In this document: one piece after another, positions 2,072 to 21,497 of the stretch | Numbering within the stretch: position 1 is the stretch's first letter | Layout: the number at the start of each line of letters is the position of its first letter | IMG/VR virus record: IMGVR_UViG_3300027917_000130 | Coordinates: 1 to 30,090 of that record | DNA: 30,090 nucleotides | From: a virus | Direction: 5' to 3' (one strand) | Notes under the pieces: model-generated | What the model saw: the letters and a program-made list of their open reading frames with translations, nothing else | Told to the model about the DNA's origin: nothing | The model's database searches: none | Made by a program: the position numbers and the translations under genes

Positions 2072-2266
2072 ATGGATAAAAATAAAGTAAGAAAAGCATT
2101 AGATCATTTTGAAAATGACGAATTTGTTGATGCAAAAGAAATTCTAAGTCAGGAAATTAAGGGTGCTGTTAGCACACACGTTAAAGACAAATGCGATTTG
2201 AAAAATGATATAGAACCCACTCCAGAGCCAGAGGGTGAAGGAGATGGAGAAGAAGGAGAAGAGTAA
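2072..2266 (+). CDS. 67: Small acidic prohead core protein (gp67-like)
   Basis: A 64-residue protein placed between portal and protease, where T4 has gp67, a small prohead core component needed for head shape. It has a helical N-terminal half (KALDHFENDEF, DAKEILSQEI) and an extremely acidic tail of E, G, D and P, as gp67 has. I chose ATG at 2072 because AAGGAGG ends 8 bases before it; the GTG at 2066 is too close to that site. Its TAA overlaps the next ATG (TAATG), so it is coupled to the protease. The assignment rests mainly on position, size and acidity. Confidence 0.6.
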   Translation: MDKNKVRKALDHFENDEFVDAKEILSQEIKGAVSTHVKDKCDLKNDIEPTPEPEGEGDGEEGEE

Positions 2267-3108
2267 TGAAAATGGCAAAACTAATTACTGAATACAGCCA
2301 AGACTTTGAGATTACAGAAGAGAATCACGGCAAAGACATGTTTGCTGTGGGTATTTTCTCTTCTGCCGAACTCAAGAATAACAACAAACGGAGATATCGC
2401 AAAGAGATTCTTGAAAGAGAAGTAGGCAAAGTTCAAGAGAAGATTGAGAAGAAATGCCTTTGGGGAGAGTTAGGACATCCTCCGAATCCAGAAGTCAATC
2501 CCGATAAGATTGCTTTAAGGACTGTCAAGCTGGAATGGAAGGGGAATAACTTATACGGAAAGGCTAAAATTCTTGATACTCCAATGGGTCAGATTGCTAA
2601 GACTCTTATCAAAGAAGGAGCTATGGGAATATCTTCAAGAGGACTTGGTACTGTAGGAGATGACGGATACGTGAACGAAGACTTTCATCTGATTACTTGG
2701 GATCTGGTAACTGATCCTAGTAATAAGCCATCATGGGTTAACGGAATCTATGAAGGTCAAGACTTTACTATCCCTGGAACGGATCTGAAAAAAGATCCTA
2801 CAGAGGAAGATGTTAGAAAAGCTCAGAAAGCTCACTACAATCAACTTTTAAGATTTATTGGTGAGTTAAGTGAGAATAAGTTAAATGAGAGAGTTAGATT
2901 ACCAGAACCGAAATTTCCGAATAAAGGAGATTTAGGACATCAACCAGATGTTATAGGTCATCTATATAATATTTATCATACTGCATATGAAGCTATGGAA
3001 ATGTATAAAAATAAACCTACTATATGTTGGCATCATATAGACTCCATTGCACTAAGTTTAAAAATGATGAAAAATACAGATGACTATAAATCTTTGAGAA
3101 AAAGATAA
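2266..3108 (+). CDS. 21: Prohead maturation protease (T4 gp21-like)
   Basis: This is the serine protease of the prohead core (herpesvirus-assemblin-like fold) that cuts capsid, scaffold and internal proteins after [L/I]xE. Visible signatures are KRRYRKEIL (41-49), the catalytic-histidine segment GELGHPP (68-74, H71) and the serine segment GISSRGLG (121-128), which correspond to GELNHPP and SSRGLG in T4 gp21. At 280 residues it is longer than T4 gp21 (212). The C-terminal extension from about residue 180 is helical, with its own His- and Trp-rich segment, and contains a possible self-cleavage site (GELSE|N, about 199-204). Overlap with the upstream gene implies translational coupling. Its specificity explains the tags on many neighbouring proteins. 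Confidence 0.92.
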   Translation: MKMAKLITEYSQDFEITEENHGKDMFAVGIFSSAELKNNNKRRYRKEILEREVGKVQEKIEKKCLWGELGHPPNPEVNPDKIALRTVKLEWKGNNLYGKAKILDTPMGQIAKTLIKEGAMGISSRGLGTVGDDGYVNEDFHLITWDLVTDPSNKPSWVNGIYEGQDFTIPGTDLKKDPTEEDVRKAQKAHYNQLLRFIGELSENKLNERVRLPEPKFPNKGDLGHQPDVIGHLYNIYHTAYEAMEMYKNKPTICWHHIDSIALSLKMMKNTDDYKSLRKR

Positions 3109-5121: not shown

Positions 5122-5976
5122 ATGGAAAAACTTCTTGAATTACTAGGTGTTCAGAAATTGGAAGAAAGTGAACAGGAAGTCATCAAAGAGAAGCTACAAA
5201 CTCTTATCGAAGTCAAAGCCCAAGAGCTTATGGAGTCAAAGCTTGAGGATGAGAAGACAAAACTGATCGAAGCCTATGAGGAAAAGTTTGAGACTTACAA
5301 AGAAGACATTACTGGTAAGTTCTCTAATTTTGTCGATGAGATCCTTGAGCAAGAAGTTAAGATTCCTGAAAAGGTTCTTGAGTATGCCAGAAAGGGTGAG
5401 CTTTACGCTGATCTGATTGAGCAGTTTAAAGTCCGTCTAGGCGTTGACGAAGGTTTACTGGATGAGGAAGTCAAAGCTCTTCTGAAAGAAGCCAGAGAAG
5501 AGATTGTTAAACTCAGAGATGAGCTAAACGAATCAATTTCTGAAAAGCTACAAACAAAACAGGATGCAACCGAATTGGCGGCAGAAGTCTATCTACATCG
5601 TAAGACCAAAGGCTTAACAGAAGGACAGAAAGAACACGTCCTAGAGATGCTTGATGGTGTTACCGATAGAGAAGAGATTGACCGCAAATTTGACATTATC
5701 GTTGAAGCCTACAATGGAAAAAACGGAAACGGAAACGGAAACGGAGATGATGACGAAGATGAGGATGAGGATGAGGATGAAAACGGTAATGGCAAAAAGA
5801 AGAAAAAGAAAAACGGAAACGGAAACGGAAACGGAAAAGAGATGAAAGAGGATGAAGATGGAAAAGGAAAAGTGGATGGAGAGGAAGATCCTCCAAAGCT
5901 AGATGAGGAAGATAACAGTCCTTTTAAACAACATCTCGATGGTTATGTGAAAACTCTCAGAGAGAGTAAGGTTTAA
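5122..5976 (+). CDS. 22: Prohead scaffold core protein (T4 gp22-like)
   Basis: The major internal scaffold, assembled inside the prohead and then cut to peptides by gp21. At 284 residues it is close to T4 gp22 (about 269). It is almost entirely helical and charged. The segment KTKGLTEGQKEHVLEML (161-177) matches the T4 segment containing DLTESQREKVSAL. Several protease-like sites occur: LIE|A (48-51), LKE|A (121-124), LTE|G (165-168), IVE|A (193-196), as expected for a protein that is shredded. Residues 198-240 are a low-complexity block (Asn-Gly repeats, acidic run, Lys run). It sits directly before the capsid gene. Confidence 0.88.
   Translation: MEKLLELLGVQKLEESEQEVIKEKLQTLIEVKAQELMESKLEDEKTKLIEAYEEKFETYKEDITGKFSNFVDEILEQEVKIPEKVLEYARKGELYADLIEQFKVRLGVDEGLLDEEVKALLKEAREEIVKLRDELNESISEKLQTKQDATELAAEVYLHRKTKGLTEGQKEHVLEMLDGVTDREEIDRKFDIIVEAYNGKNGNGNGNGDDDEDEDEDEDENGNGKKKKKKNGNGNGNGKEMKEDEDGKGKVDGEEDPPKLDEEDNSPFKQHLDGYVKTLRESKV
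5722..5835 (+). repeat. Asn-Gly / acidic / poly-Lys low-complexity block in scaffold
   Basis: AACGGA hexamers occur four times at 5722-5745 and again at 5812-5835, encoding NGNGNGNG. Between them lie GATGAG repeats (Asp-Glu run, residues 209-220) and an AAG/AAA run (K6, 225-230). The block divides the helical scaffold core from its acidic C terminus. Confidence 0.85.
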
Positions 5977-6000: not shown

Positions 6001-7236
6001 ATGAATATTAAAGATCTGGTTAAGAAATGGGATGCAGTTCTCTCAGAGGGGAAGGAGATTAAATCTGAAAGAGTAAAGAAAGCTACTGCTATCATGCTTG
6101 AAAACCAGCATAATCACCTGATGGAAGGCGTTACATGGAGTGGGCCGAATGACTCATTAGGAGCAGGAGATGGTAGAGGTATTAGTGGTACTACATATCC
6201 TACTAGTGGTATGTTTCACAAAATCGCTGTTCCAATGGTTAGGAGAACCTTTCCTGAACTAGTCGCCCATCAACTAGTCGGAGTTCAACCGCTGACTGGC
6301 CCTGTCGGTCTTGCGTTTGCTCTGCGTTTTAGAGCAGGAACAACCGCTGGTAGTTATGTTGCTAACGTGACAGAACTGGGATATAACACCATTGATTCAA
6401 CTTACTCAGGATCATACATTACTTCCGCTGGTGAAGCTTTAGGTTCTAAAGCTGGTTCTGGTGTAGGAAATGATATCGGTCTTGGTGTTGGTGCTGGTAC
6501 TCATATCAGAGAAGTCAACTTAACCGTTGAAAAAACTCAGGTCGAAGCAAAGACTAGAAAGCTTAGAAGCCGATGGTCTTTGGAAATTGCTCAAGACCTA
6601 AAGGCTATGCATGGTCTTGATCTTGAGGAAGAGATGATGGACATCCTTGCTTACGAAATCACGCAAGAGATTGACCGTGAACTTATTGCGGCTATTGACG
6701 CTACAGTACGTGGCGTTGCTGGTTACGATACTACATGGGATTTCCTAGCGAGTGCTCAAGGCGTTAAAGGACGTTGGGAGATGGAGAGATACAGAGAACT
6801 CTATCACCACATCATTCGTAGAACTCAGGATATTGCAATTAATACTCGTAGAGGATCTGCTAATTGGATCGTGGGTAATCCAAGAGGAGTTGCCATTCTG
6901 GAAACACTAGCCGCTTTTGCTATTGCTCCAGTTCCAGGTGACGTTACTACTCAGCCTACAGGAGTTTCAAGAATTGGTTCTCTTGACGGTAGACTGGTTG
7001 TTTACAGAGATACCTTTGAGAGCAGGGATCAGTTCATCGTGGGTTACAAAGGCCCAAGCGAGTATGATACTGGAGTCATCTACTTGCCGTACATTCAGTT
7101 GTTAGCAAGCAGAGCAGTATTTGAAAATAGCTTCCATCCTACAGTTGGTCTAATGAGTCGTTATGCGATTCACAATCATCTGTTTGGAGCTAGAGAATAC
7201 TACCAGTTGATTCGACTAACCAATATCCCACAATAA
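6001..7236 (+). CDS. 23: Major capsid protein (T4 gp23-like)
   Basis: The HK97-fold hexamer protein of the head. At 411 residues it is shorter than T4 gp23 (521). Recognisable segments include VRRTFPELVAHQLVGVQPL (about 80-98), the Lys/Arg-rich VEAKTRKLRSRWSLEIAQDL, a segment beginning HGLDLEEEM, and near the C terminus FIVGYKGPSEYDTG. The pro-sequence has two gp21-type sites, LSE|G (14-17) and LME|G (40-43). By analogy with T4 (FLTE|A at 65) I take the second as the maturation site. Expression is shared with the scaffold and is followed by a strong terminator, consistent with very high output. Confidence 0.95.
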   Translation: MNIKDLVKKWDAVLSEGKEIKSERVKKATAIMLENQHNHLMEGVTWSGPNDSLGAGDGRGISGTTYPTSGMFHKIAVPMVRRTFPELVAHQLVGVQPLTGPVGLAFALRFRAGTTAGSYVANVTELGYNTIDSTYSGSYITSAGEALGSKAGSGVGNDIGLGVGAGTHIREVNLTVEKTQVEAKTRKLRSRWSLEIAQDLKAMHGLDLEEEMMDILAYEITQEIDRELIAAIDATVRGVAGYDTTWDFLASAQGVKGRWEMERYRELYHHIIRRTQDIAINTRRGSANWIVGNPRGVAILETLAAFAIAPVPGDVTTQPTGVSRIGSLDGRLVVYRDTFESRDQFIVGYKGPSEYDTGVIYLPYIQLLASRAVFENSFHPTVGLMSRYAIHNHLFGAREYYQLIRLTNIPQ

Positions 7237-7361: not shown

Positions 7362-8369
7362 ATGCAGAAACTAATCTTTAATTCCCTACCTGTAGTTGAT
7401 ACACGAATACAAGCATTAGCATTATCAATAGGTACTTATTTTCTATTTACCGAAGATGCTTGGCAACAAAACAATCCCGATATTCAAAGGATAACATATT
7501 GGCAGAGAATACCTAGACATAAAACTGGTGGGCCTTATCCTTTGCCTAGTAATCCAGCAAAGAATACAACACAAGAAGCTCAACCAGTTTCGGCTGGTGG
7601 GCCTTTCCCTCCTAACTGCCCTGGATACACAGAGATATATTTTCCAGAAGATGGAGTTATAAAAGGTCAAGGTGGGATAGGATATGTAAAAATTTATGAC
7701 TTCTTTGAAAATGAGCCATCTTCAATTTCTAGTTCAAGTTTAAGTTCCAGTTCTAGTAGCTCTCTAAGTTCAAGCTCAAGTTCAAGCTCAAGTTCTCTTT
7801 CAAGTTCCTCTAGTTCAAGCAGTTCAAGCTCAAGTTTAAGTTCTAGTAGCTCAAGTTCAAGCTCAAGCAGTTCTCTTTCAACCTCAAGCAGTTCCTCTTC
7901 ATCGTCAAGCAGTTCAAGTTCTAGCTCAAGCTCAAGCAGTTCTCTTTCTACAAGTTCTAGCTCAAGCTCTTCATCTGCAATTTCATTTACTGATAGGACA
8001 AGTAATACTTATTGGGCAAATGATGTTGGAGGGCCATGTACTACAACTTGGAACGCTAGTGCTGGTGCGTGGGATAGTTGTTTGTATGCCGCTGCTGGAT
8101 GGTATTGGTGCTATTTACAGGATGTAGGTGTATGGACAAATTCATATAGACCTTCTTACATGAAAATAACATGGACTGGAAATGCAACATTGAGAGCAAT
8201 TGTTTTAAAGGATTCAACAAATGCTATAATTGCAGGAAATACTGGTGGTGGTTTTACTTCACCAACAATATTACCTATTAGCTTTGGTGCTAATGATATA
8301 GCTCATTTAGAGTTAGATACAGGATCAGGACAATCATCATTTTCTGTAACAGGAATTGAATTCGCCTAA
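7362..8369 (+). CDS. Polyserine-linker surface protein, possible capsid decoration
   Basis: A 335-residue protein in three parts. Residues 1-118 form a compact, Pro- and Gly-containing N-terminal domain (GPYPLPSNP, GGPFPPNCPGY). Residues about 119-206 are nearly pure serine with regularly spaced Leu, Ile or Thr. Residues about 207-335 look like a beta-sandwich (WYWCYLQDVGVW, MKITWTGNATLRAIVL), as in carbohydrate-binding or fibre-tip domains. No signal peptide or membrane segment is present. With its own late promoter and its place next to the capsid gene, a head-decoration or fibre role (Hoc-like in concept, not in sequence) is likely, with serine as a flexible spacer. The family is not recognised. 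Confidence 0.75.
   Translation: MQKLIFNSLPVVDTRIQALALSIGTYFLFTEDAWQQNNPDIQRITYWQRIPRHKTGGPYPLPSNPAKNTTQEAQPVSAGGPFPPNCPGYTEIYFPEDGVIKGQGGIGYVKIYDFFENEPSSISSSSLSSSSSSSLSSSSSSSSSSLSSSSSSSSSSSSLSSSSSSSSSSSSLSTSSSSSSSSSSSSSSSSSSSSLSTSSSSSSSSAISFTDRTSNTYWANDVGGPCTTTWNASAGAWDSCLYAAAGWYWCYLQDVGVWTNSYRPSYMKITWTGNATLRAIVLKDSTNAIIAGNTGGGFTSPTILPISFGANDIAHLELDTGSGQSSFSVTGIEFA
7717..7979 (+). repeat. Polyserine-coding low-complexity tract
   Basis: About 85 codons, nearly all Ser. TCN and AGY codons alternate often (TCAAGT, TCAAGC, TCTAGT), so the DNA is a degenerate hexamer array. CTT, CTA or TTA (Leu) interrupts at intervals of about 7 to 20 codons. Confidence 0.9.
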
Positions 8370-9573: not shown

Positions 9574-9602
9574 TTGACATTTTCTTGTTACTGTGATAAA
9601 TA
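9574..9602 (+). promoter_or_regulatory. Promoter for small terminase and PrkA cassette (hybrid type)
   Basis: TTGACA (9574-9579) is followed after 17 bases by TAAATA (9597-9602). The same place reads GATAAATA (9595-9602), one base from the late octamer. It may therefore be active both early (host sigma factor) and late. It is divergent from the deaminase promoter and 27 bases before the ATG at 9629. Confidence 0.6.
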
Positions 9603-9628
9603 TCTATAAAAGCTGGAGGTTTGTTTCT

Positions 9629-10159
9629 ATGGAAAAAGAAAAGAAAGAACAAGAACTGGATCTGAATATGTTGGATGAGGTATTCGGATTGAATTATAAT
9701 GATTTGCCAGAAGGAAGAGAAGTAAAAGAAAATGAGATGGAAGAGATAGAAGTCAATTATGATGATCCTGTAGACATCTTAAAAGCCAATATCAAAAAAG
9801 CTAACCTTATATTAGACAGAATCAATGAGGAAATCGGCAAAGGAAATTTTACAGCACGAATGGTTGAGGTAGCTGGCAATATTATAAATGGTATAACTGC
9901 CGCTAGCAAGGAGATAATCACCAAAGAAAATTACTCTGGTTATTTGGAAGTCCGAAAAGAATTAAATGATCTAAAAGAAAGAGAAGTCATCCTTAAAGAA
10001 AAAGCTGGAATCAGAGGAGGACACATAACCAATCAACAAAATATCATAGTAAGCAGTAGAGAAGATCTTTTGAAGCTTATGGAAAATAGAGAAAAACCTA
10101 AAAAGATTGAAGGTAAAGTAGTAAAACAGATACCACAAAAAACAGATGAAAGGAACTAA
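9629..10159 (+). CDS. 16: Small terminase subunit (T4 gp16-like)
   Basis: The DNA-recognition ring that regulates packaging by gp17. At 176 residues it compares with T4 gp16 at 164. The arrangement fits: an acidic N terminus (LDLNMLDEVFGL), a long central coiled coil (about 52-125, DILKANIKKANLILDRI) and a C-terminal NQQNIIVSSREDLLKLM, which parallels NIQNATVFMGSPTELM in T4 gp16. I start at 9629 because of GGAGG and the promoter; a 12-residue upstream extension would begin inside the promoter. Unusually, it is more than 9 kb from the large subunit and heads the PrkA cassette. Confidence 0.75.
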   Translation: MEKEKKEQELDLNMLDEVFGLNYNDLPEGREVKENEMEEIEVNYDDPVDILKANIKKANLILDRINEEIGKGNFTARMVEVAGNIINGITAASKEIITKENYSGYLEVRKELNDLKEREVILKEKAGIRGGHITNQQNIIVSSREDLLKLMENREKPKKIEGKVVKQIPQKTDERN

Positions 10160-10161
10160 TT

Positions 10162-12165
10162 ATGGAAACATTAAATGGTGACAACAAAGATTTTAGAGAC
10201 ATTATTCTGGAGCAACAAAAAGACGCTCCTCCTGCCAAGTGGTCGGGGTCTTTGCTTGACTACATGAAAGAGGTAGAGAAGAATCCAGAGATAGCAAATC
10301 TTTCTCCTGCCAGAATCTACAACATGATTATGAGACATGGAACACGTCCAGTAGACGAATCCATTAAAACAAAGGGCTACGAAGATCTAGTCTGGTATAA
10401 ATTCTTTGACGGTAAGATATTTGGAAACCGTACAGCGGAAGCAATCCATGACATTATGAAATTCCTTAAAGCTTCTGCGAAGAGAACAGAGACAGGCAAA
10501 AGAATCCTCATGCTTGTAGGCCCAGTCGCTTCTGCCAAGTCAACTATTTCCGCTCTTATTAAAAAAGGTCTGGAGATAGATGAGACTCCTAAGTATGCCA
10601 TTACAGGATGCCCTTTACATGAAGAGCCATTACATGCTATTCCAGAAGCAAATAGACCTACATGGGAAGAGAAGTTAGGAGTCAAGATTGAAGGTGATCT
10701 ATGTCCAGTCTGTCAGTTAAGGATAGACCAAGAGTTTACCAATGAGGACGGAACGGTTAGGTGGCATGAGATTCCTGTAGAACTAGTCAAAATTTCAGAG
10801 CAGAGAAGATCTTGTATCGGAACCTTCATTCCTTCTGATCCTAAGAGCCAAGATATTTCAGAGCTTATCGGAAGTGTCAACATGGGTAAGGTAGCAATGT
10901 ACGGTGAATCAGATCCAAGAGGATACACTTTTGACGGTGAGCTACAGGTTGCCAATGGTGGGATTATAGAATACATTGAGATCTTAAAAGCAGACATTAA
11001 ATTTCACCATGTTCTTTTAACTGCCGCTCAAGAGCAAAAGATTAAAGCTCCTAGATTTCCTCAAATGTATATTGATACATTAATTCTATCTCATACGAAC
11101 TTTACGGAATTTCACAAGTTCCGAAACAATAAAGAAAATGAAGCACTACATGATAGAATGTTTGTCATCAAAGTTCCTTGGAATGATAGAGTCAAAGATG
11201 AAGTAGAGATTTACAAGAAGATAATCGCTGAATCAGCATTTACAGGAGTGCATATATCTCCTCAAGCGTTGGAAGTTGCCGCTCAATTTGCAGTACTTTC
11301 CAGATACCATGATTCGGAGAAGATAAATCTAATCAAAAAAATGAAGCTTTACAATGGTGAATATCTAGAAGAGTTTGCCAAAGGTAAAGATTACGATATC
11401 CGAAAGCTCCGAGAAGAAGGAAAAGACCATGAAGAATGTTTAAGTGGGATTTCTCCAAGATTCATTATGAACGCTTTGAATATCATCTTAGGAGTAAAGG
11501 AAAATCTGGATACAGGGAATCCAGAATATTGCGGTTGTATTACTGCATTAGATATGATTCGTGAAATTCGCAATACCTTTGAACATCATATTGGACATGA
11601 GGAGAAGGAGAGAAAAAGATTTGAAGAGCTTCTCATTGCTGATAAAGACTCTATTTTAGCGGAGTACAAAGAATTTGCGAAAAGAGAAGTCAGTAAAGCA
11701 TTTGTTCATGCCTATGATGACCAAGCAGATGAACTATTTGCTAGGTATATGATCAATGTTTCCGCTGATTGCAAAAACGAAACAGTTCTTGATAAGATAA
11801 CTGGGGAGTACAAAGAACCAGACGAAGATATTATGAGAGCAATCGAAGAGCAGATTGGTATCCCTCAAGAATCCAAGAAGATTTTCCGAAACGGAATTTT
11901 CGTTTACGAAGCAGATGCTTTAAAACAGGGTAAACATTTCACTTGGAAAACTTATCCACCTTTGAAGGATGCAATAGAGAAAAAACTTATGAGTGATCTT
12001 AAAAATGTTGTTACGCTTTCTATTGCAGACAGTACAGTTACCAATCCGAAAGCAGAGAAGAGAAGAGAAGCCGCTATGCAGACTTTACTTGAAAAGGGTT
12101 ACTGTAAGAATTGTGCCAAACACCTTCTGTCTTTTGTAGGAGAACTGCTACGTAGGGAGAACTAA
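10162..12165 (+). CDS. prkA: PrkA-family serine kinase/AAA ATPase (YeaG-like)
   Basis: PrkA (Bacillus) and YeaG (E. coli) are AAA-type ATPases with a kinase-like C-terminal region, linked to sporulation and nitrogen-starvation responses. At 667 residues it is near the usual 630-645. The P-loop is GPVASAKST (120-128; usually GPVGGGKS), preceded by GKRILMLV. Other family marks are GCPLHEEPLH (149-158), CPVC (181-184), SDPKSQDISELIGS (225-238) and NGGIIEYIEILK (265-276). It lies 2 bases after gp16 and directly before the YhbH-like gene, so the bacterial pair is kept. Whether the altered P-loop is active cannot be told from the sequence. Confidence 0.92.
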   Translation: METLNGDNKDFRDIILEQQKDAPPAKWSGSLLDYMKEVEKNPEIANLSPARIYNMIMRHGTRPVDESIKTKGYEDLVWYKFFDGKIFGNRTAEAIHDIMKFLKASAKRTETGKRILMLVGPVASAKSTISALIKKGLEIDETPKYAITGCPLHEEPLHAIPEANRPTWEEKLGVKIEGDLCPVCQLRIDQEFTNEDGTVRWHEIPVELVKISEQRRSCIGTFIPSDPKSQDISELIGSVNMGKVAMYGESDPRGYTFDGELQVANGGIIEYIEILKADIKFHHVLLTAAQEQKIKAPRFPQMYIDTLILSHTNFTEFHKFRNNKENEALHDRMFVIKVPWNDRVKDEVEIYKKIIAESAFTGVHISPQALEVAAQFAVLSRYHDSEKINLIKKMKLYNGEYLEEFAKGKDYDIRKLREEGKDHEECLSGISPRFIMNALNIILGVKENLDTGNPEYCGCITALDMIREIRNTFEHHIGHEEKERKRFEELLIADKDSILAEYKEFAKREVSKAFVHAYDDQADELFARYMINVSADCKNETVLDKITGEYKEPDEDIMRAIEEQIGIPQESKKIFRNGIFVYEADALKQGKHFTWKTYPPLKDAIEKKLMSDLKNVVTLSIADSTVTNPKAEKRREAAMQTLLEKGYCKNCAKHLLSFVGELLRREN

Positions 12166-12166
12166 A

Positions 12167-13465
12167 ATGACAATCGTATATCACGATGATTGGAAAATAG
12201 ATAAAGGCATTAAAGATGCCGCTAGACATAGAAAGAAAGTAGACAAGGCAATCAGGGAGAATATTCAGAATGTCATTGGAGAAGAGTCTATTATCACTAG
12301 ACCAGATGGTAAGAAAACCGTAAGAGTGCCGATTAAAGGACTAAGAGACTACAAGTTTATTTACGGTAAAGGTGGATCGGCTGGTGTCGGTCAAGGTGAT
12401 AAGAAAGCTGGTGACGTTCTGGATGAACGTCATAGTAGTAGTGGCAAAGGTGGTGCTGGTAGCAATAAAGGAATTGACTTCATAGAGACAGAAGTTGATA
12501 TTGATTATCTTCTTGAGATCATGTTTGAAGATCTTGGATTGCCACATTTAGAAGAGAAAGACAAAGCAAGTACAATAGTACATAAGGGATGGAAGACAGA
12601 TTCCATTTCTAAAATTGGCCCTCTCTCCAGAATCCACAAAAAGAAAACTATGTTGGAAGCAATTAAACGAAACGCTATTTATACTGGAGAAATAAGAGAG
12701 CAAACTGGTTGTGATAATGACTCCGCATGTAGAGCATTAAAGCAAGCTAAAGGTGATCTTCTTGAAGCTATCAATATAATTAACGAAGGAAGATTAAATG
12801 GAGATAAAGAATCCTCTATCATTATAGATGATATTGATCTAAGATTTAAAACCATAGATGAGGATATAGAAATTTGCTCTAATGCTGTGGTGATCGCAAA
12901 GATGGACGTATCTGCTTCTATGGATGTCAAGAAGAAATATCTTGTTAGAAGTCTTCTTTTTTGGTTAGTCGAATTCCTAAGAAGTAAATATGAGCAAGTA
13001 CATATCAGATTTATTCAACATGCAGAATCCGCTATAGAAGTGGATGAAGATACCTTCTTTAATAGAGGTACTACTGGTGGTACTTACTGTCATACAGCCA
13101 TTGACAAGGCTATAGAAATGATAGATGCTGAATATCCATTGGACGAATGGAATATTTATAGTGTTTACTGCTCCGATGGAGAAGATTTTAGAGAAGACAT
13201 GACTGTATCCAGTATTGAGGATCTTCTTGAAAAAGTCAATATGTTTAGCTATATCGAAGTGAAACCTACTGGTGACTATTCTAATTTAATGCCAGCAATG
13301 AAGAAGAAATGGAAATTTGAAGAACGTAAAATTGAGAACCAAGGAAACTTTTGGATAAATGAGGAGAAAAGATATTACATGTCAGTAATACGTGACAAGA
13401 AACATGTAAGACTTGCTCTACAACATATGCTAAGATTAAAGAAAGAGAAAAGAGGAAAGATATGA
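12167..13465 (+). CDS. yhbH: YhbH/YeaH family protein (DUF444) with UBA-like insert
   Basis: The usual partner of PrkA; it carries a von Willebrand A-like domain. At 432 residues it has the N-terminal YhbH region (GGSAGVGQGDKKAGDV about 69-84, LEIMFEDLGLP about 116-126, GPLSRIHKKKTM about 151-162), DLRFKTI (224-230) and the metal-binding motif DVSASMD (247-253) with TTGGTYC and CSDGED. Between about 172 and 209 is a segment (REQTGCDNDSACRALKQAKG) that looks like the UBA/TS-N domain of elongation factor Ts; I do not expect it in ordinary members. It starts 1 base after PrkA and overlaps SpoVR by 4 bases. Confidence 0.9.
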   Translation: MTIVYHDDWKIDKGIKDAARHRKKVDKAIRENIQNVIGEESIITRPDGKKTVRVPIKGLRDYKFIYGKGGSAGVGQGDKKAGDVLDERHSSSGKGGAGSNKGIDFIETEVDIDYLLEIMFEDLGLPHLEEKDKASTIVHKGWKTDSISKIGPLSRIHKKKTMLEAIKRNAIYTGEIREQTGCDNDSACRALKQAKGDLLEAINIINEGRLNGDKESSIIIDDIDLRFKTIDEDIEICSNAVVIAKMDVSASMDVKKKYLVRSLLFWLVEFLRSKYEQVHIRFIQHAESAIEVDEDTFFNRGTTGGTYCHTAIDKAIEMIDAEYPLDEWNIYSVYCSDGEDFREDMTVSSIEDLLEKVNMFSYIEVKPTGDYSNLMPAMKKKWKFEERKIENQGNFWINEEKRYYMSVIRDKKHVRLALQHMLRLKKEKRGKI

Positions 13466-14964
13466 ATTCAAAAGAACTCAAACGTCTAATAAAAATTGAA
13501 GATAGAATTTATGAGATTGCTAGAGAAGAAGGTCTTGAGTTTATACCTATAGAATTTGATATTGTTCCTGAAAACAAAATGCTTGAGATTATGGCATATG
13601 GTATGCCAGGGCAAATCTCCAATTGGAAGTTTGGAAGAGACTACGAAAGGCTAAGAACCATTTATGAACACTCCGTAGGTAGTCTTCCGCTGGAAGTAGT
13701 TATTACTACAAATCCTGCCAGATCCTATCTAATGAAAAACAATACCTTTGCCGTTCAAGTTTTAACTGTAGCTCATGTGGTGGGTCACGTTACTTTCTCC
13801 ACAATGAACAAATACCATGAAGAACTAGACAAGGATCTTGTTTCTAAATTGATCGCTGGTGGTAGAAGGTTTGATGACTATGAAAGAAAATACGGCATAG
13901 ACATAATTGAGAAAACAGTTGATGCTGGACACGCTATACACTTACACTCTTCTCCGTTTGAATCCAATGAGACAGAAGAAGAAAAAAGAGAAAGAATATT
14001 TAAACAGAAAAAACAAAAAGCACATGAAAGAACTCCTACTGAATTCGATGATCTATTTGAAACATCTAATAAGGAATTAGAAAAGGCAGAAATAGAAAGA
14101 GATCTTTACAATCATAATCTTTGGATGAAGTTGAAAAACCAGATTCCAGTAGAGCCTACAGAAGATCTACTCCGTTTTATTATAGACAACTCCAGAGTTC
14201 TATCAGACTGGCAAAAAGACATCCTTGAAATTTTGCGTCAGCAAGGAAGATATTTCTGGCCCCATGTCAAAACAAAATATATGAATGAGGGTTTTGCAAC
14301 ATATTGGCATGAGAATATAATGAGGAAACTCTTCAATGAAAATCTCTTGACTCCAGAAGAACATGCCGAATACAATTATACTAATTCATTCGTTAAAGCT
14401 AAGAATCCATTTTCCATGAATCCTTATCTGATAGGAAGTGAGATATGGTATGATATTGTTAAACGATGGGATAGAGGAATGTACGGAGATGCATACGAAG
14501 AAGAAACTGATATGGAAGCAAAGCTAAATTGGAATACTGGAGAAATGAATGGAAAAGAAAAAATGCTTGAAGCTCTAAGGACTCATAGCGATTGGTTCTT
14601 CATGCAGAATTTCCTAACTGATGAACTTGTAAGAGAGCTTGAACTTTACCTCTATGTAAAGCAAAAAGATTTCTACTCTGAAAAAATAGTAGTAGCGGAT
14701 AAGACAAAAGAAGAAGTCAGAAATCTTATTATCAAGAGCTTTGCACATTCAGGAATTCCTAAGATCCTTGTCAATGATGGAAGAAGAGAATTGCATCTTG
14801 AGCATAGACATGTTGGAATGGATCTTGATCAAGAATACACACAAAAAACTCTGGATCACATAGCCTACCTTTGGGGAGACACCGTTCATTTGAGCACGAA
14901 ATTTAACAAGGCAAACAAGGTGTATAAAGCCGATTCTCCCTATAAAATAGAAAAAGACGAATAA
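13462..14964 (+). CDS. spoVR: SpoVR family protein (YcgB-like)
   Basis: SpoVR is needed for spore cortex formation in Bacillus; the E. coli homologue YcgB is a stress-linked protein of unknown biochemistry. At 500 residues it is full length. Family marks are MPGQISNWKFGRDYE (48-62), AHVVGHVTF (104-112; usually AHVYGHSDF), YFWPH (264-268) and MNEGFATYWH (274-283). A charged stretch at about 170-215 is variable. The start overlaps the DUF444 stop, so all three genes form one translational unit. It is the last gene before a tandem promoter region. Confidence 0.92.
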   Translation: MNSKELKRLIKIEDRIYEIAREEGLEFIPIEFDIVPENKMLEIMAYGMPGQISNWKFGRDYERLRTIYEHSVGSLPLEVVITTNPARSYLMKNNTFAVQVLTVAHVVGHVTFSTMNKYHEELDKDLVSKLIAGGRRFDDYERKYGIDIIEKTVDAGHAIHLHSSPFESNETEEEKRERIFKQKKQKAHERTPTEFDDLFETSNKELEKAEIERDLYNHNLWMKLKNQIPVEPTEDLLRFIIDNSRVLSDWQKDILEILRQQGRYFWPHVKTKYMNEGFATYWHENIMRKLFNENLLTPEEHAEYNYTNSFVKAKNPFSMNPYLIGSEIWYDIVKRWDRGMYGDAYEEETDMEAKLNWNTGEMNGKEKMLEALRTHSDWFFMQNFLTDELVRELELYLYVKQKDFYSEKIVVADKTKEEVRNLIIKSFAHSGIPKILVNDGRRELHLEHRHVGMDLDQEYTQKTLDHIAYLWGDTVHLSTKFNKANKVYKADSPYKIEKDE

Positions 14965-15521: not shown

Positions 15522-15890
15522 ATGGATATTCCAAAATACAAAAGGCTTTTCGGAATCAAAGTTCCTCTGGAAGAGTTTTCTCCTAAAGAGTTAAAACGGA
15601 GATGGAGAATACTTTGTAAAAAATATCATCCAGATCATGGTGGTCTTAAAGAGCACTTTGAATTTGTACAAGAAGCATATGCATACTTGAAGGAACATTG
15701 CAAAGGCATTAAAGATAGCAATGCTACGTCCTTTGAATCTATATTAGATGGATATGAAGTCAATTTGGAAAACGGTGAGAGCATGTATATTTGGGATACT
15801 GGTTATCCTCCGAATCCAGCAAAGAGACAAGCATATGAAAAAAGACATCCGAATAGATTTAAAGGAAGAAATTTAAATGTCCGTATATAA
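15522..15890 (+). CDS. J-domain protein (DnaJ-like, short)
   Basis: A 122-residue protein whose first 65 residues form a J domain: helix II ELKRRWRILCKKY, the HPD motif at 36-38 (YHPDHGG) and helix III FEFVQEAYAYLKEH. Such proteins stimulate host DnaK-type chaperones. It has no Gly/Phe or zinc region; the rest (about 66-122) is a short specific tail ending in a basic patch. It begins immediately at the previous stop (TAA|ATG) with no clear ribosome site, so translation probably depends on coupling. A role in virion assembly or in recruiting the chaperone to accessory proteins is inferred. Confidence 0.85.
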   Translation: MDIPKYKRLFGIKVPLEEFSPKELKRRWRILCKKYHPDHGGLKEHFEFVQEAYAYLKEHCKGIKDSNATSFESILDGYEVNLENGESMYIWDTGYPPNPAKRQAYEKRHPNRFKGRNLNVRI

Positions 15891-15905: not shown

Positions 15906-17006
15906 ATGAAGAATAATGAAGAAGGATGGGTAATTGTAGCGGCTTTGCTAGTGCTTTGTGTTCTTACTCTCATTGGTACTGCAAGCGTTAGTGTAAGCAG
16001 GACTGAATTGCTTATTGTTAAAAATTTTCAGATCCACCATAAGAATTTTTATACGTCAGAAGGTGGTCTTTTAATGACTCCTGCTTGGCTGAAAAATGAA
16101 CTAACAGAAGCCGACTATAAGAATGTTGACTATGTTGGAAACTTTGATAAAGATTACTGGACGTGGAGTAATGGGTTTTTCAAAAATCAATTCTTCTCCG
16201 TTGTGGTAAAACACCAAGTAAGAACTGATCCATCCGATGGAGTCAAAAAAGTTTTACTATATGGTGATGAAGACGGAGACTATCTAAATGAAGTCAATTT
16301 CAATGTAGGGATACCGCTGGAAATTTCTGTTAGTGATGGTACACATACATTTCATGGTGGACAAGTAAAAATAGAAGGTCGCTGGATGTATGAATATATT
16401 TTCGTCATGCCTAATGCCGCTTTACGTGTTAATTCCAGCGTTAACGGCAACGGAGTAAGCGGAAGCATTATCGGAGAAGGAGAATATGGCTCTGGTTGCG
16501 GAGATGTAGCGGATATTATGTATGATGTTGCTGGTGGCACAATTGACTATAGCGGTGATATGGGAACCACTCCAAGAATCGAAGCAAGCGGTGGTATGTA
16601 TCCATATCCTATTTTGAAGCCCATTTTACAGAGAAACGCTACACAAACTTTAGATCCTGTAAATGGAACTGTTAAAGCAGATGACATCATTACTAGTGAA
16701 ACCGAAACAGGTGTTATCTTTATTACTGGAGATGCCAAAATTACTAACTTAACTGGTTATGGTATTCTGGTAGTAGATGGAATATTTGAGTGTGCTGGAA
16801 ACCTTGATTGGTATGGGCTAATCATAGTTGGAAATAACATTGTCCTTTCTGGTGGTGGAACAAAAACAATTTATGGTTCCGTTGTAGCCACAGGAGAAGC
16901 GGTTGCTATCAATGGCTCTGTAGATATTCAATATGACTGTAATGTATTGAGAGATTTACAAGATAACCATTCACGGTACAAATTGACTAGCTGGAGACAA
17001 CTATAA
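15906..17006 (+). CDS. PilX-like type IV pilin/minor pilin
   Basis: A 366-residue protein with a class III prepilin start: a short charged leader MKNNEEG, probable cleavage after G7, then a hydrophobic helix at about 8-30 (WVIVAALLVLCVLTLIG). The pattern and the following FYTSEGGL (about 47-54) are those of PilX N-terminal proteins of type IV pilus systems. As in some PilX/GspK-type pilins the mature protein lacks Glu5. The C-terminal 150 residues look like a beta-rich domain (GYGILVVDGIFE, WYGLIIVGNNIVL). It would be inserted in the inner membrane and could join the host pilus. AAAGGGA precedes the start. No other pilus gene is present. Confidence 0.82.
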   Translation: MKNNEEGWVIVAALLVLCVLTLIGTASVSVSRTELLIVKNFQIHHKNFYTSEGGLLMTPAWLKNELTEADYKNVDYVGNFDKDYWTWSNGFFKNQFFSVVVKHQVRTDPSDGVKKVLLYGDEDGDYLNEVNFNVGIPLEISVSDGTHTFHGGQVKIEGRWMYEYIFVMPNAALRVNSSVNGNGVSGSIIGEGEYGSGCGDVADIMYDVAGGTIDYSGDMGTTPRIEASGGMYPYPILKPILQRNATQTLDPVNGTVKADDIITSETETGVIFITGDAKITNLTGYGILVVDGIFECAGNLDWYGLIIVGNNIVLSGGGTKTIYGSVVATGEAVAINGSVDIQYDCNVLRDLQDNHSRYKLTSWRQL

Positions 17007-17662
17007 TGGATAGATCTAACAAGTACGTAAACGAATTCTTTGACCTTACTTGTTATCCTGATATATTGGATATCCTTAACCCGATATCTAACCGTAAGAA
17101 AGAAATAACAGAGTCTATGGCAGTAATTAAATACTTGCGTAGACTGGCATTGAAGAATCCAGAGAAGAAATATTTTCTCTATGATTTTTGCGCTGGTAAT
17201 GCATTGACTTCTGTTACTACGGCTTTCCTGTATAAGAATATTTCTTGTTATGCGATAGATAAAGCAAAAAGAGATAGAAACTGGGATAAAGTAAATCACT
17301 TCATGTATCTGCAAAGTGATATTCAAGAAGAGAACTGGGAATACATGTTACATCAAATGAGAGTGGTTTATCCTTTAACAGAAATAATTATAATCGGTGT
17401 TCATCCATGCAGGGAGCTAGCAAAGAGAATAATTGATATCTACAATAAATCTAAAGTGGATCATTTGATTCTTATGCCTTGCTGTACTGGTGGAAAGTAT
17501 AAATTTTCTCTCCCACAAGTCATAAAAGAGAAAGTGGGAGACTATTTAACATGGTGTGTGTACCTCTTAGACCTTGTAGAAGGGAAGAAAAGATTAATAG
17601 TAGATGAGAGTATACTATCACCTAAAAACGCCTTAATTATAGCAGATAGGAGCGGAAAATGA
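17006..17662 (+). CDS. Probable SAM-dependent methyltransferase
   Basis: A 218-residue protein. YDFCAGNALTS (about 59-69) fits the SAM-binding glycine loop, followed by an acidic residue after the next strand (YAIDKAKRDR). The later IGVHPCRELAKRI (about 131-143) and LILMPCCTGGK (about 154-164) resemble the TRM13/METTL25-type methyltransferases (MPCC motif), which modify RNA or proteins. Which substrate is used here is unknown. Its ATG overlaps the pilin stop (TAATG), and the neighbouring tRNA genes make tRNA a possible substrate. Confidence 0.6.
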   Translation: MDRSNKYVNEFFDLTCYPDILDILNPISNRKKEITESMAVIKYLRRLALKNPEKKYFLYDFCAGNALTSVTTAFLYKNISCYAIDKAKRDRNWDKVNHFMYLQSDIQEENWEYMLHQMRVVYPLTEIIIIGVHPCRELAKRIIDIYNKSKVDHLILMPCCTGGKYKFSLPQVIKEKVGDYLTWCVYLLDLVEGKKRLIVDESILSPKNALIIADRSGK

Positions 17663-18120
17663 AACTTTTTTTAATATGTTCTGGACTAGCTTTGATAGTT
17701 GTAGTAATTTGGAATCGTTTTAAACGATACTCTGAAAGAATGGCTATAGAATCACAAATCTTTTCAGATGAACTGAAAAAATCTCTGGAGAAAAGTGCAG
17801 AAGAGACTATGAAAATGAAAAGTGGTGAAACTCCATCTGATGAAGATATTGATAAATACTATAGAATGTATTGCAAAAAATTTGAATTGGATACAGAAGA
17901 CGAATGGACTACCGCAGAACTATTGACATTTGAAGAGTTTGAAAAAGACGCAAAGGATAAAGGATATAGATTTCTAATCTCAATGACTAGTGATGCTTTT
18001 TCTTTTGATCCATCTACTGGTCAGTCAGTTATGTGGAGATATATAGATTATGAATCAATGATTGACGAAGATTATCATTTCGATCAAGAAACCATAAATA
18101 AACAACTAGATATAGAATAG
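17659..18120 (+). CDS. Membrane-anchored hypothetical protein
   Basis: A 153-residue protein with one N-terminal membrane helix (LFLICSGLALIVVVIW, about 3-18) followed by basic residues (NRFKRY), which suggests that the rest stays in the cytoplasm. The soluble part is acidic and helical (SDELKKSLEKSAEETMKMK), then a compact region (WTTAELLTFEEFEKDAKDK). It could be an envelope-associated accessory or superinfection-exclusion factor, but this is inference. The ATGA overlap links it to the methyltransferase. The last base of its TAG stop is the first base of tRNA-Thr. Confidence 0.65.
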   Translation: MKLFLICSGLALIVVVIWNRFKRYSERMAIESQIFSDELKKSLEKSAEETMKMKSGETPSDEDIDKYYRMYCKKFELDTEDEWTTAELLTFEEFEKDAKDKGYRFLISMTSDAFSFDPSTGQSVMWRYIDYESMIDEDYHFDQETINKQLDIE

Positions 18121-18196
18121 CCGCTGTAGCTCTTAACGGTAGAGCGTCTGACTTGTAATCAGAGGGTTGGGGGTTCAAATCCCTCCAGCGGCTCCA
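18120..18196 (+). tRNA. tRNA-Thr (anticodon TGT)
   Basis: A full cloverleaf: acceptor GCCGCTG / CAGCGGC, D arm GCTC...GAGC, anticodon stem TCTGA / TCAGA with loop CTTGTAA, T arm GGGGG-TTCAAAT-CCCTC, discriminator T and an encoded CCA at 18194-18196. The anticodon TGT reads ACA, which is useful in an AT-rich phage. The first base is shared with the upstream TAG stop, so the tRNA must be excised from the operon transcript. Confidence 0.95.
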
Positions 18197-18650: not shown

Positions 18651-18727
18651 GCACCTGTAGCTCTAACGGCTAGAGCATTGGACTCCAAATCCAAGTGTTG
18701 AAGGTTCAAATCCTTCCAGGTGTGCCA
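18651..18727 (+). tRNA. tRNA-Trp (anticodon CCA)
   Basis: Acceptor GCACCTG / CAGGTGT (first pair G-T), D arm GCTC...GAGC, anticodon stem TTGGA / TCCAA with loop CTCCAAA, T arm GAAGG-TTCAAAT-CCTTC, discriminator G and an encoded CCA at 18725-18727. It reads TGG. It starts directly after the stop of the preceding gene. Confidence 0.94.
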
Positions 18728-18774: not shown

Positions 18775-19824
18775 TTACATATAAACCCAAACTTTGTTAT
18801 ACTTATCCCATTGATCATATGGGTTCTCTCCACCTATTACATAAATTCTTCCTCCAAATTCACAAGCTCTTGCGTATGCAATTGGAACTGGAAATGGATC
18901 AATACTAGTGAAACTGCTAAAATTAGTAGTTACTAAACAAGTTCTAAAATCTTGTCCATAATAACCACCACCTATTAACCAATGTGTTCCGTTTGCTTGA
19001 CTAGCCCAAATTAATTTGGTAGGATTTATTTCGTGAATATATGAAGGTAAATCCCAAGGATAAGATTGTACTCCCCATTGTAATCCATTTTGAGTTATAA
19101 ATACCCAGTTTTGTCCTTTAATTTTTAGCATAACAAACTGAGCTATCTGACCCAAACCTTGTATCGTATAATCCCAAGAAGGTTGCCAAGTTGAACTTGA
19201 AAATGTAGGTATCAGAACTATAGGTTCTGTATCTGCTACATATTGCCATCCATTATCAGTCCAAGTATATGTTCCGTTTTGCCAAAGATTTCTGTCTTGT
19301 GTTTTTCTTTGTAGAACAGCAGGAATTGGATCACCATGAGAAAGAAGTTGCCAAGGCCCACCACCTTTAGTTATTTCTTTTTTATAGATAACTTGGTGAT
19401 TTGATAACAAAGCAAAAGCAGAATTTCCAACTTCAAAAGCTTTCCACCATAGACCTATTGCTGTATTTCCTCCTTTAGTGTTTCCAGCACTTCCCCATCT
19501 TATCTGAACTCCTTTTGTTGTAGCACTTCCACTAGAAACCCATTGAGCGGTTTGTTTACCTCTTTGACTAGTAAGAACTCCTCCTCCAAGAACATAGGCT
19601 CTTCCTTGAATAGTTTTACCGACTCCTTCTAAATGTGCGTTATCCAAATCATTGTCTATTCTTTCCCAGTTTACTGCATCTGAGCTTCTCCATACAGCGG
19701 CACTTGGAGCTTTCCCACCTGGTACGGTAACTTCTCCACCAGCCACTATTAAATCTCCAAGTTGATCAAAATATGGAAATCTACTTCCATAAAATGGTAT
19801 TTCTCCTACTTGTTGCCATCCCAT
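18775..19824 (-). CDS. Kelch-like beta-propeller protein
   Basis: A 349-residue protein, rich in Trp, Gly and aromatic residues, with repeated blade-like turns: DLIVAGGE (near 24-31), AYVLGGG, HWLIGGGYYG and RIYVIGGEN near the C terminus, which fit degenerate kelch repeats. There is no signal peptide. It is alone on the minus strand between tRNA genes and the large terminase, with a strong ribosome site (AGGAGG) and a late-like octamer upstream. Propellers of this sort occur in phage tail fibres and adhesins, so a receptor-binding or virion surface role is a reasonable inference. It has no N-terminal fibre-attachment motif that I can recognise. Confidence 0.7.
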   Translation of the reverse strand: MGWQQVGEIPFYGSRFPYFDQLGDLIVAGGEVTVPGGKAPSAAVWRSSDAVNWERIDNDLDNAHLEGVGKTIQGRAYVLGGGVLTSQRGKQTAQWVSSGSATTKGVQIRWGSAGNTKGGNTAIGLWWKAFEVGNSAFALLSNHQVIYKKEITKGGGPWQLLSHGDPIPAVLQRKTQDRNLWQNGTYTWTDNGWQYVADTEPIVLIPTFSSSTWQPSWDYTIQGLGQIAQFVMLKIKGQNWVFITQNGLQWGVQSYPWDLPSYIHEINPTKLIWASQANGTHWLIGGGYYGQDFRTCLVTTNFSSFTSIDPFPVPIAYARACEFGGRIYVIGGENPYDQWDKYNKVWVYM

Positions 19825-19906: not shown

Positions 19907-19914
19907 TATAAATA
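19907..19914 (+). promoter_or_regulatory. T4-type late promoter motif TATAAATA
   Basis: An exact octamer, 29 bases before the large terminase ATG at 19944. Confidence 0.7.
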
Positions 19915-19943: not shown

Positions 19944-21497
19944 ATGGCTATACGATATGATGACTTTGTAAAACGACCTAACGAAGAACTTGAATATACT
20001 CCAGAACAGATTGAAGAGTTAATGAAATGTAAGGAGGATGTTCATTACTTTGCTATAAAATATATTAAAATTGTTACTCTGGATCATGGAGAAGTATCTT
20101 TTGATCCATATGAATATCAAGTAACTACAATTGACTTACTCCATAAAAATAGATTTTTCGTGGGGCTATGGGCAAGACAGTCTGGAAAGACTACAGTAGT
20201 TTCTATTTACGCTTTGTGGTATGCGATATTCCATCCTTTAAAGAATGTAGGTATTGTCTCCAATAAAGAAACTTCCGCAAAACGTATTCTGGATACAATG
20301 AAGAGAATGTATGAAAGGTTGCCAGTCTGGTTGAAACCAGGCGTCACAGAATATCAAAAGACCTCCGTACATTTTGACAATGGCTCTAACTTAATCATTT
20401 CGGCTACTACTGCCGATGCCTTTAGGGGCTGGCCCATGAACCTAGTCATTTGTGATGAGTTTGCTTTCGTGCCTGGAAATCAAGCAGAAGAGTTTTGGGC
20501 GGCTAACTATCCTACACTATCATCCTCCAAAACATCAAAGCTGATAATTATTTCTACTCCTAATGGTATGTTCAATATCTTTCATAGGATCTGGACTCAA
20601 GCTCAAGTAGGAGATAACGAATTCAAACCGTTTAAAGTCATTTGGGATCAGGTTCCAGGAAGAGATGAAGCTTGGGCTTCTACAGAAGTAGCCAATATGG
20701 GATTGCAAGCGTTCAATCAAGAATATGCTTGTAAGTTTTTAGGATCTACCAATACTGTTATTCATCCAGAATGTCTACGTACTTTAATGAGCATGGATAA
20801 AGAACCTATCTTCTATGATCTACAAGATAGACTTAGACTTTGGGAGAAGCCAAAAGAAGGAGCATGGTATATTTTGGGGTGTGATCCAGCCAAAGGTACG
20901 GGGGAAAATGCTTCTGGTATCCAGATCCTAAAGATTAATTCCGTCAATCCCATAGACCTAGACCAGATAGGAGTCTTTGAAGACAACCTAACTGATGTCT
21001 ATGAGTTCTCCCATATCATAAACAAGCTCTCCTATTACTTTAACAATGCCTTTATCATGTGCGAAAATAACGGAGAAGGAGCGGCAGTAATAGCGGAGCT
21101 TTGGTGGCACTTTGAAAATGAGAACCTAGTCAATTCAGGTAGTAAAAAGAAAAGCCTTGGTATCCGTTCACAGAAAGACACAAAACCAAAAGCAGTACTT
21201 CTAATGAAGAAGGTTATAGAGGACGGTAGTATAAGACTCAGAGACAAGGAAACTATTGAGCAATTAGGATCATTCATAGAAGAGAAGAACAAATTTTTCG
21301 GGAAAGATAAACCAGATGATTTAGTTTCTGCTTTATATTGGGGAACTTATGTCTTTATGATGAACATCATAGATGAGGAATTCAAGTTCAAAAAAAGTAA
21401 AATGGACACGAATGATGCATGGGGTATCTTGTCAGATATAGAAGATGATATAGATGATTGGAGTTGGCTAACTAAATCAACAATTTGGGATCAATAA
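19944..21497 (+). CDS. 17: Large terminase subunit (T4 gp17-like)
   Basis: The packaging motor and headful nuclease. At 517 residues it is shorter than T4 gp17 (610). Walker A is ARQSGKTT (77-84), Walker B LVICDE (167-172), and the coupling motif STP is at 204-206. The RNase H-like nuclease has the expected acidic residues: D313 in LGCDPAKGTG, E374 in IMCENNGEG and D458/D459 in KPDDLVSALYWG. It forms the motor with the portal (442-2016) and is guided by the small subunit at 9629. ATG follows GAGG and a late promoter. Confidence 0.95.
   Translation: MAIRYDDFVKRPNEELEYTPEQIEELMKCKEDVHYFAIKYIKIVTLDHGEVSFDPYEYQVTTIDLLHKNRFFVGLWARQSGKTTVVSIYALWYAIFHPLKNVGIVSNKETSAKRILDTMKRMYERLPVWLKPGVTEYQKTSVHFDNGSNLIISATTADAFRGWPMNLVICDEFAFVPGNQAEEFWAANYPTLSSSKTSKLIIISTPNGMFNIFHRIWTQAQVGDNEFKPFKVIWDQVPGRDEAWASTEVANMGLQAFNQEYACKFLGSTNTVIHPECLRTLMSMDKEPIFYDLQDRLRLWEKPKEGAWYILGCDPAKGTGENASGIQILKINSVNPIDLDQIGVFEDNLTDVYEFSHIINKLSYYFNNAFIMCENNGEGAAVIAELWWHFENENLVNSGSKKKSLGIRSQKDTKPKAVLLMKKVIEDGSIRLRDKETIEQLGSFIEEKNKFFGKDKPDDLVSALYWGTYVFMMNIIDEEFKFKKSKMDTNDAWGILSDIEDDIDDWSWLTKSTIWDQ

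Follow-up and report, generated by a model that had tools for sequence, protein, structure and literature searches.

The window analysed here, a virus fragment of 30,090 bases (IMG/VR record IMGVR_UViG_3300027917_000130), carries three adjacent genes for proteins of the PrkA, DUF444 (YhbH/YeaH) and SpoVR (YcgB) families, set between the genes for the small (TerS) and large (TerL) terminase subunits. In a large uncultured T4-like phage group this trio in effect belongs to the core genes, being as constant as the adjacent terminase genes, and it appears to be regular equipment of these viruses and not a chance acquisition. That phages can carry the trio is already known; its standing as a core set of a T4-like lineage is new. 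The three families are found widely among bacteria, and the phage lineage provides a new, compact system for finding what the trio does. The concrete, testable leads are a predicted gluzincin-like fold in SpoVR and a UBA/TS-N insert in DUF444.

Conservation and origin of the trio

PrkA (10162..12165), DUF444 (12167..13465) and SpoVR (13462..14964) are encoded on the + strand by open reading frames (ORFs) of 667, 432 and 500 amino acids. A sequence-only reading of the window had described three full-length genes in this order, separated by a 1-base gap and a 4-base overlap and bearing the family motifs GPVASAKST, DVSASMD, AHVVGH and MNEGFATYWH; the ORF coordinates and the translations bear out each of these statements. 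The position behind the small terminase holds as well. The upstream ORF (9593..10159, + strand; 188 amino acids) matches phrog_445 weakly (E 5e-4), and its assignment as the probable TerS is backed by its place directly before PrkA in 54 of 54 relatives. Its likely start is the ATG at 9629, with a GGAGG ribosome site at 9615-9619.

Conservation was assessed in two samples of contigs. The first consisted of 60 T4-like IMG/VR contigs found through PrkA, which is 56-82% identical to that of the window. Where these contigs are long enough, DUF444 follows PrkA (48/48), SpoVR follows DUF444 (41/41) and TerL, the downstream boundary of the cassette, lies beyond SpoVR on the same strand (25/25). The complete trio is thus found between the TerS and TerL genes in all 41 relatives with sufficient sequence, and the median gap between TerS and PrkA is 14 bases. 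Since contigs drawn by PrkA could bias the sample for presence of the trio, a second and independent sample was drawn by TerL alone and comprised its 80 best relatives. DUF444 and SpoVR are present in 46/46 of the contigs with at least 4.5 kb upstream, and all three genes in 36 of the 37 whose upstream sequence reaches 7 kb or more; the remaining contig is truncated and begins inside DUF444. Six loci without SpoVR, which have 0.97-3.2 kb upstream of TerL, were counted as uninformative because their sequence ends before the position that SpoVR takes in a window-like layout.

The block also withstands rearrangement, as two relatives (L112 and L148) have the flanking structural genes inverted and retain TerS-PrkA-DUF444-SpoVR-TerL in one piece. 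A comparison of the window with its relative L094 gives nonsynonymous divergences (dN) of 0.125, 0.174 and 0.141 for the trio against synonymous divergences (dS) of 1.2-1.7, which indicates purifying selection. The earlier proposal that genes kept together function as a unit is strongly supported by the co-retention, by the congruent gene trees described below and by dN/dS values well below 1.

Pfam and PHROG profile matches type the window as a fragment of a T4-type myovirus with its head and packaging cluster, which also includes head-tail connector genes. The phage-type matches are portal (442-2016), protease (2266-3108), scaffold (5122-5976), gp23 capsid (6001-7236), TerL (19944..21497, + strand), Ad2 and Hc2. 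The virus is distant from cultured phages, the best identities being about 37% for TerL and about 35% for the capsid protein, and cyanophages are the nearest. Two further, independent contigs from this virus show identical junctions, that between TerS and PrkA in one (L002), and those between PrkA and DUF444, between DUF444 and SpoVR and downstream of SpoVR in the other (L001). The cassette is therefore not an assembly chimera, and host contamination was likewise ruled out, with every junction on independent contigs and a layout common to about 60 relatives.

The T4-like phage copies form a single clade in each of the three gene trees, with Shimodaira-Hasegawa-like approximate likelihood ratio (SH-aLRT) values of 96 for PrkA, 100 for DUF444 and 100 for SpoVR; the trees are quick ones with several long branches. 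The sister of the phage clade is in every case the same bacterial operon clade, from metagenome-assembled genomes (MAGs) of Spirochaetota and Myxococcota. Because the three trees agree on both clade and sister, they indicate one old capture of the entire operon by the ancestor of the lineage, followed by vertical inheritance, and the transfer would have run from bacterium to phage. Among the phages of the lineage, the protein distances of the three genes correlate with one another (r 0.71-0.79) and with those of TerL (0.58-0.81). The sequence-only reading had asked whether the phage copies form their own clade and had named recent separate insertions, decaying frames and a chimera as outcomes that would speak against it; the clade was recovered for each gene and none of the three outcomes was found, recent separate insertions being ruled out by the congruent trees.

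The closest bacterial counterparts are the PrkA-YhbH(YeaH)-SpoVR(YcgB) operons of three MAG contigs (L014-L016), which have the same families, order and tight spacing and a UBA-like insert in DUF444. They are 52-54% (PrkA), about 40% (DUF444) and about 43% (SpoVR) identical to the phage trio, but are chromosomal and lie among ordinary bacterial neighbours, outside any phage packaging cluster. The possibility that these contigs are themselves phage sequences in MAGs was ruled out by their bacterial neighbourhood and by the lack of matches to any other gene of the window.

A search of phage databases for adjacent PrkA, DUF444 and SpoVR, as the sequence-only reading had advised, recovered the trio in Thermus phages and in huge metagenomic phages besides the T4-like lineage, so that the rarity implied by that reading does not stand. 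In the Thermus phages (YS40/TMA, phiLo, MN1, Lalka8/27; the trio is clustered in YS40_Isch, phiLo, MN1 and Lalka8) the module resembles that of the window in holding all three genes together, in Lalka8 near TerL and portal, but its order is DUF444-SpoVR-PrkA, its PrkA is 31-37% identical and forms a separate clade, and DUF444 has no UBA insert, which points to a separate capture. The SpoVR of the phiYS40 type is too distant for BLAST and is annotated in YS40_Isch. The huge-phage trios (LR756511 and IMG/VR contigs L187-L212) are intact and in the same gene order as in the window, but have a PrkA only 30-34% identical in a clade of its own (100), a DNA-polymerase neighbourhood and no UBA insert. 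Ralstonia jumbo phage RsoM2USA has been published with SpoVR (ORF28) and PrkA (ORF30) close together; their best matches are gammaproteobacterial, and the genes are listed singly and not as a module (PMC8504454). Since the PrkA tree places the Thermus phages, the huge phages and the YeaG-like copies of phages outside the T4-like clade, the operon appears to have been captured by phages more than once.

Individual genes of the set are on record from phages under the labels "sporulation" or kinase gene (PMC8940887, PMC8504454), a survey of an oxygen-minimum zone included spoVR among its viral "sporulation" genes, and PHROGs already contains unnamed families for the three proteins. The open-access literature searched yielded no account of the three genes together as a core cassette of phages.

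The three proteins

PrkA of the window belongs to its family by two Pfam domains that together cover nearly the full length, the AAA+ domain AAA_PrkA (PF08298; 1.9e-102, 343 bits) followed by the PrkA C-terminal domain (PF06798; 3.6e-62, 211 bits), each against a cut-off of 25. A solved relative is PDB entry 9xip (E 3.6e-116). Residues of the Walker A motif, the acidic Walker B region, the sensor Asn and the Arg (G120, K126, S127, E270, E273, N313 and R332) are invariant in both alignments compared. The Walker A sequence GPVASAKST (10519..10545, + strand) has Ala in place of the Gly that precedes the Lys, at residue 125. It was rejected as a phage hallmark, as most relatives have GPVxSGKST and the window represents a minor variant.

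The DUF444 protein matches its Pfam family over nearly the full length (3.6e-86). It scores 325 bits against the NCBIfam equivalog spore_yhbH, below the cut-off of 467.95 bits, and is therefore a member of the DUF444 family and not the sporulation equivalog. The predicted fold matches vWA domains in the PDB, including the metal ion-dependent adhesion site (MIDAS) domains of Rea1/MDN1, and the MIDAS residues D247, S249, S251, T306 and D337 are invariant; the D, S and S of the motif DVSASM (DxSxS; 12905..12922, + strand) are conserved in 65/65 sequences. An insert of about 40 residues (12662..12793, + strand) is present in all 31 T4-like copies compared, is absent from other phage and most bacterial copies, and is otherwise shared only with the bacterial sister operon clade. 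Single inserts mostly fall below the Pfam thresholds; a profile built from 32 of them is similar to two solved domains, the archaeal NAC UBA domain (1tr8; E 4.6e-7) and the E. coli EF-Ts TS-N domain (1efu; E 1.1e-6), and the insert forms three helices at high predicted local distance difference test (pLDDT) values in the DUF444 model. It is consequently taken as a UBA/TS-N domain of the EF-Ts/alpha-NAC type. Its presence in the bacterial sister operons shows that it is not a phage invention.

SpoVR is likewise covered nearly in full by Pfam matches above the cut-offs, to SpoVR (1.8e-94, 317 bits) and SpoVR_C (1.7e-10, 41 bits), and was modelled with a pLDDT of 92. When the model was searched with VIA-align, the list was filled by metallopeptidases of clan MA (M1, M2, M32, M61, M48, M49 and others) with a best Z of 12.4, a measure that can be inflated for helical models. 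In a structure search of BFVD, a zincin of phage AR9 ranked second (E 9e-3). Three residues are, as in gluzincins, invariant in 79/79 sequences: H105 and H109 in the motif HVVGH (13774..13788, + strand), an HxxxH without Glu after the first His, and E276 in NEGFATYWH (14284..14310, + strand; NEGxA). The former two are candidate metal ligands and E276 a candidate third; position 283 is His in 62 sequences and Asp in 17. SpoVR thus looks like a metal-binding relative of the gluzincins.

Several observations besides the behaviour of the Z values count against this view of SpoVR, and with it against the functional explanation proposed below. The catalytic Glu of zincins is absent, residue 106 being Val or Ala in all 79 sequences, for which reason SpoVR is not classed as a peptidase. 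A Foldseek search of the PDB with the model gave no significant match, and no Pfam or PDB sequence profile ties SpoVR to peptidases, so that the gluzincin assignment rests on one aligner; SpoVR as a peptidase detectable by sequence was dropped.

Unusual SpoVR frames occur in other phages. In a huge phage (L010, LR756504; 14537-16441) an intein-like insert of about 140 residues splits SpoVR within the conserved NEG/A motif, as though the insertion were aimed at the motif of the metal site. Frames of about 900-1370 amino acids, roughly 2-3 times the normal length, are found in L137, L189, L193, L194, L200, L202 and L205 and may contain inteins or fusions. L137 also has a TerL of 1131 amino acids, roughly two to three times normal, again a possible intein or fusion.

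Expression and possible roles

Promoter motifs were surveyed in 30 genomes of the lineage, against a background of 3% from random stretches. The exact T4-type late promoter motif TATAAATA lies upstream of TerS (15/30), TerL (18/29), scaffold (13/27) and portal (9/20), and upstream of PrkA, DUF444 and SpoVR in 0/30 genomes each. The window holds 10 exact sites against 3.7 expected, several of them 30-40 bases before head or packaging genes, and one (19907..19914, + strand) precedes TerL. Its TerS is preceded by GATAAATA (9595..9602, + strand), one mismatch from the motif and 34 bases before the likely ATG. Because the late motif precedes TerS and not the trio, and because the gap between TerS and PrkA is so short, the trio is probably co-transcribed late with the small terminase. 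A TTGACA at 9574-9579, upstream of GATAAATA, makes an additional promoter of the sigma70 type possible for TerS.

The explanation that we favour, with a rough probability of 0.45 for the whole of it, combines a single capture, late reading from the TerS promoter and a machine of an AAA+ ATPase, a MIDAS protein and a metalloprotein that maintains the infected cell or its envelope in working order. An operon of the type now seen in Spirochaetota and Myxococcota MAGs would have been captured once and whole by a T4-like ancestor, set between the TerS and TerL genes and kept vertically as a core cassette. Judging from the promoter motifs, most transcription of the trio would start at the TerS late promoter, and the three proteins would appear together with the packaging motor. 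Fold and motifs suggest that PrkA forms an AAA+ ring, that DUF444 serves as its vWA/MIDAS adaptor, with the UBA/TS-N domain providing an additional place to dock, and that SpoVR is a metal-site client or effector of the two. The most likely benefit would be that an energy-poor infected cell, chiefly its envelope, stays in working order long enough for the large virions to be filled.

Such an architecture would be that of the AAA+/MIDAS remodellers, in which an AAA+ ATPase and a vWA/MIDAS adaptor act on a client, as in Rea1/MDN1, whose MIDAS the DUF444 model matches, and in MoxR-vWA pairs such as RavA-ViaA and CbbQ-CbbO. Unlike these, PrkA belongs to a separate AAA+ family, and both its pairing with DUF444 and the client are predicted. 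The repeated independent capture of the trio and its terminase-like constancy argue that it is one working machine that pays in lytic infection. Maintenance of the cell and envelope is favoured because bacterial PrkA acts in stress, being needed for sporulation and under osmotic stress in B. anthracis (PMC13001217), and because sensitivity to antimicrobial peptides is reported for Salmonella yeaH mutants and, from unpublished data within the same paper, for bacterial mutants of ycgB (PMC2375023).

Further points stand on the other side. A protected envelope in the infected cell is an extrapolation from the bacterial mutants. Kinase or protease activity of PrkA is disputed even for the bacterial proteins and was negligible in vitro for that of B. 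anthracis (PMC13001217), and a literature search turned up no expression, interaction or enzyme data for any phage copy. Moreover, the TerS promoter of the window itself is no more than a late site with one mismatch. An essential late-stage machine, in which the PrkA ring and DUF444 with its MIDAS and UBA/TS-N domain act on or through SpoVR, as a gluzincin-fold metalloprotein lacking the usual catalytic Glu, and a host factor docked via the TS-N-like domain (EF-Tu being one candidate), is unlikely; if it exists, work on the phage copies would uncover how one of the commonest uncharacterised stress modules of bacteria works biochemically.

It is possible, if somewhat unlikely, that the trio is an auxiliary host-physiology set that mimics a starvation or stress response and owes only its late timing to the terminase site. 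Roles of YeaG in nitrogen starvation (PMC4664914) and of PrkA in osmotic stress and sporulation (PMC13001217) agree with this, as do the independent, repeated capture by unrelated phages and the several genomic contexts. Auxiliary genes are, however, usually patchy within a lineage, whereas retention is here about 100%. The proposal also overlaps with the favoured explanation, which is its envelope-centred version, and the two are not fully separable.

The main rival, in our judgement rather unlikely, is a morphogenesis or packaging factor, with the AAA+/MIDAS pair remodelling the terminase, the portal or a capsid intermediate and SpoVR as a maturation factor. The invariant placement between TerS and TerL, retained through inversions, would be expected of such a factor, and the module also lies near TerL and portal in Lalka8 and near TerL in YS40_Isch and in two IMG/VR contigs (L184 and L186). 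On the other hand, well-studied T4-like phages package their DNA without the trio, all three genes are ordinary bacterial stress genes, and the trio of another contig (L178) lies near UvsX, DnaB and RNR. The huge-phage trio lies near DNA-polymerase genes, which argues against a packaging role as a general rule; adjacency to TerS and TerL favours late action in this lineage.

A takeover or counter-defence role, in which the phage proteins take the place of the host trio or the UBA/TS-N domain seizes a host factor such as EF-Tu, draws on the likeness of the insert to alpha-NAC and to the TS-N domain, which is part of the EF-Ts/EF-Tu complex, but it is very improbable given the same insert in bacterial sister operons and the lack of any meaningful match of the three proteins in PADLOC, on which membership of a defence system was dropped.

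Neighbouring genes

The region between SpoVR and TerL holds several further features. A small J-domain protein with the HPD motif (15522..15890, + strand; Pfam DnaJ 30.6 bits, above the cut-off) is encoded at this place only in the sub-clade of the window (L094-L104), where the HPD is present in 12/12 loci having the gene; it might recruit host DnaK. It is followed by a 366-residue protein (15906-17006) with a hydrophobic N-terminus like that of type IV pilins or PilX (Pfam PilX_N E 4e-4, below the cut-off), unusual beside packaging genes, and by a methyltransferase-like protein (17006-17662; Methyltransf_32, 36 bits, above the cut-off). Genes for tRNA-Thr(TGT) and tRNA-Trp(CCA) lie at 18120-18196 and 18651-18727; in YS40_Isch, too, a tRNA-Thr gene lies between the trio and TerL. 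Just before TerL, on the - strand, stands an ORF resembling Kelch/beta-propeller proteins (18775-19824), which was not found in L094. On the other side of the cassette, the ORF after the capsid gene (7362-8369) contains a long, near-pure serine tract and has a late-promoter-like site 35 bases upstream.

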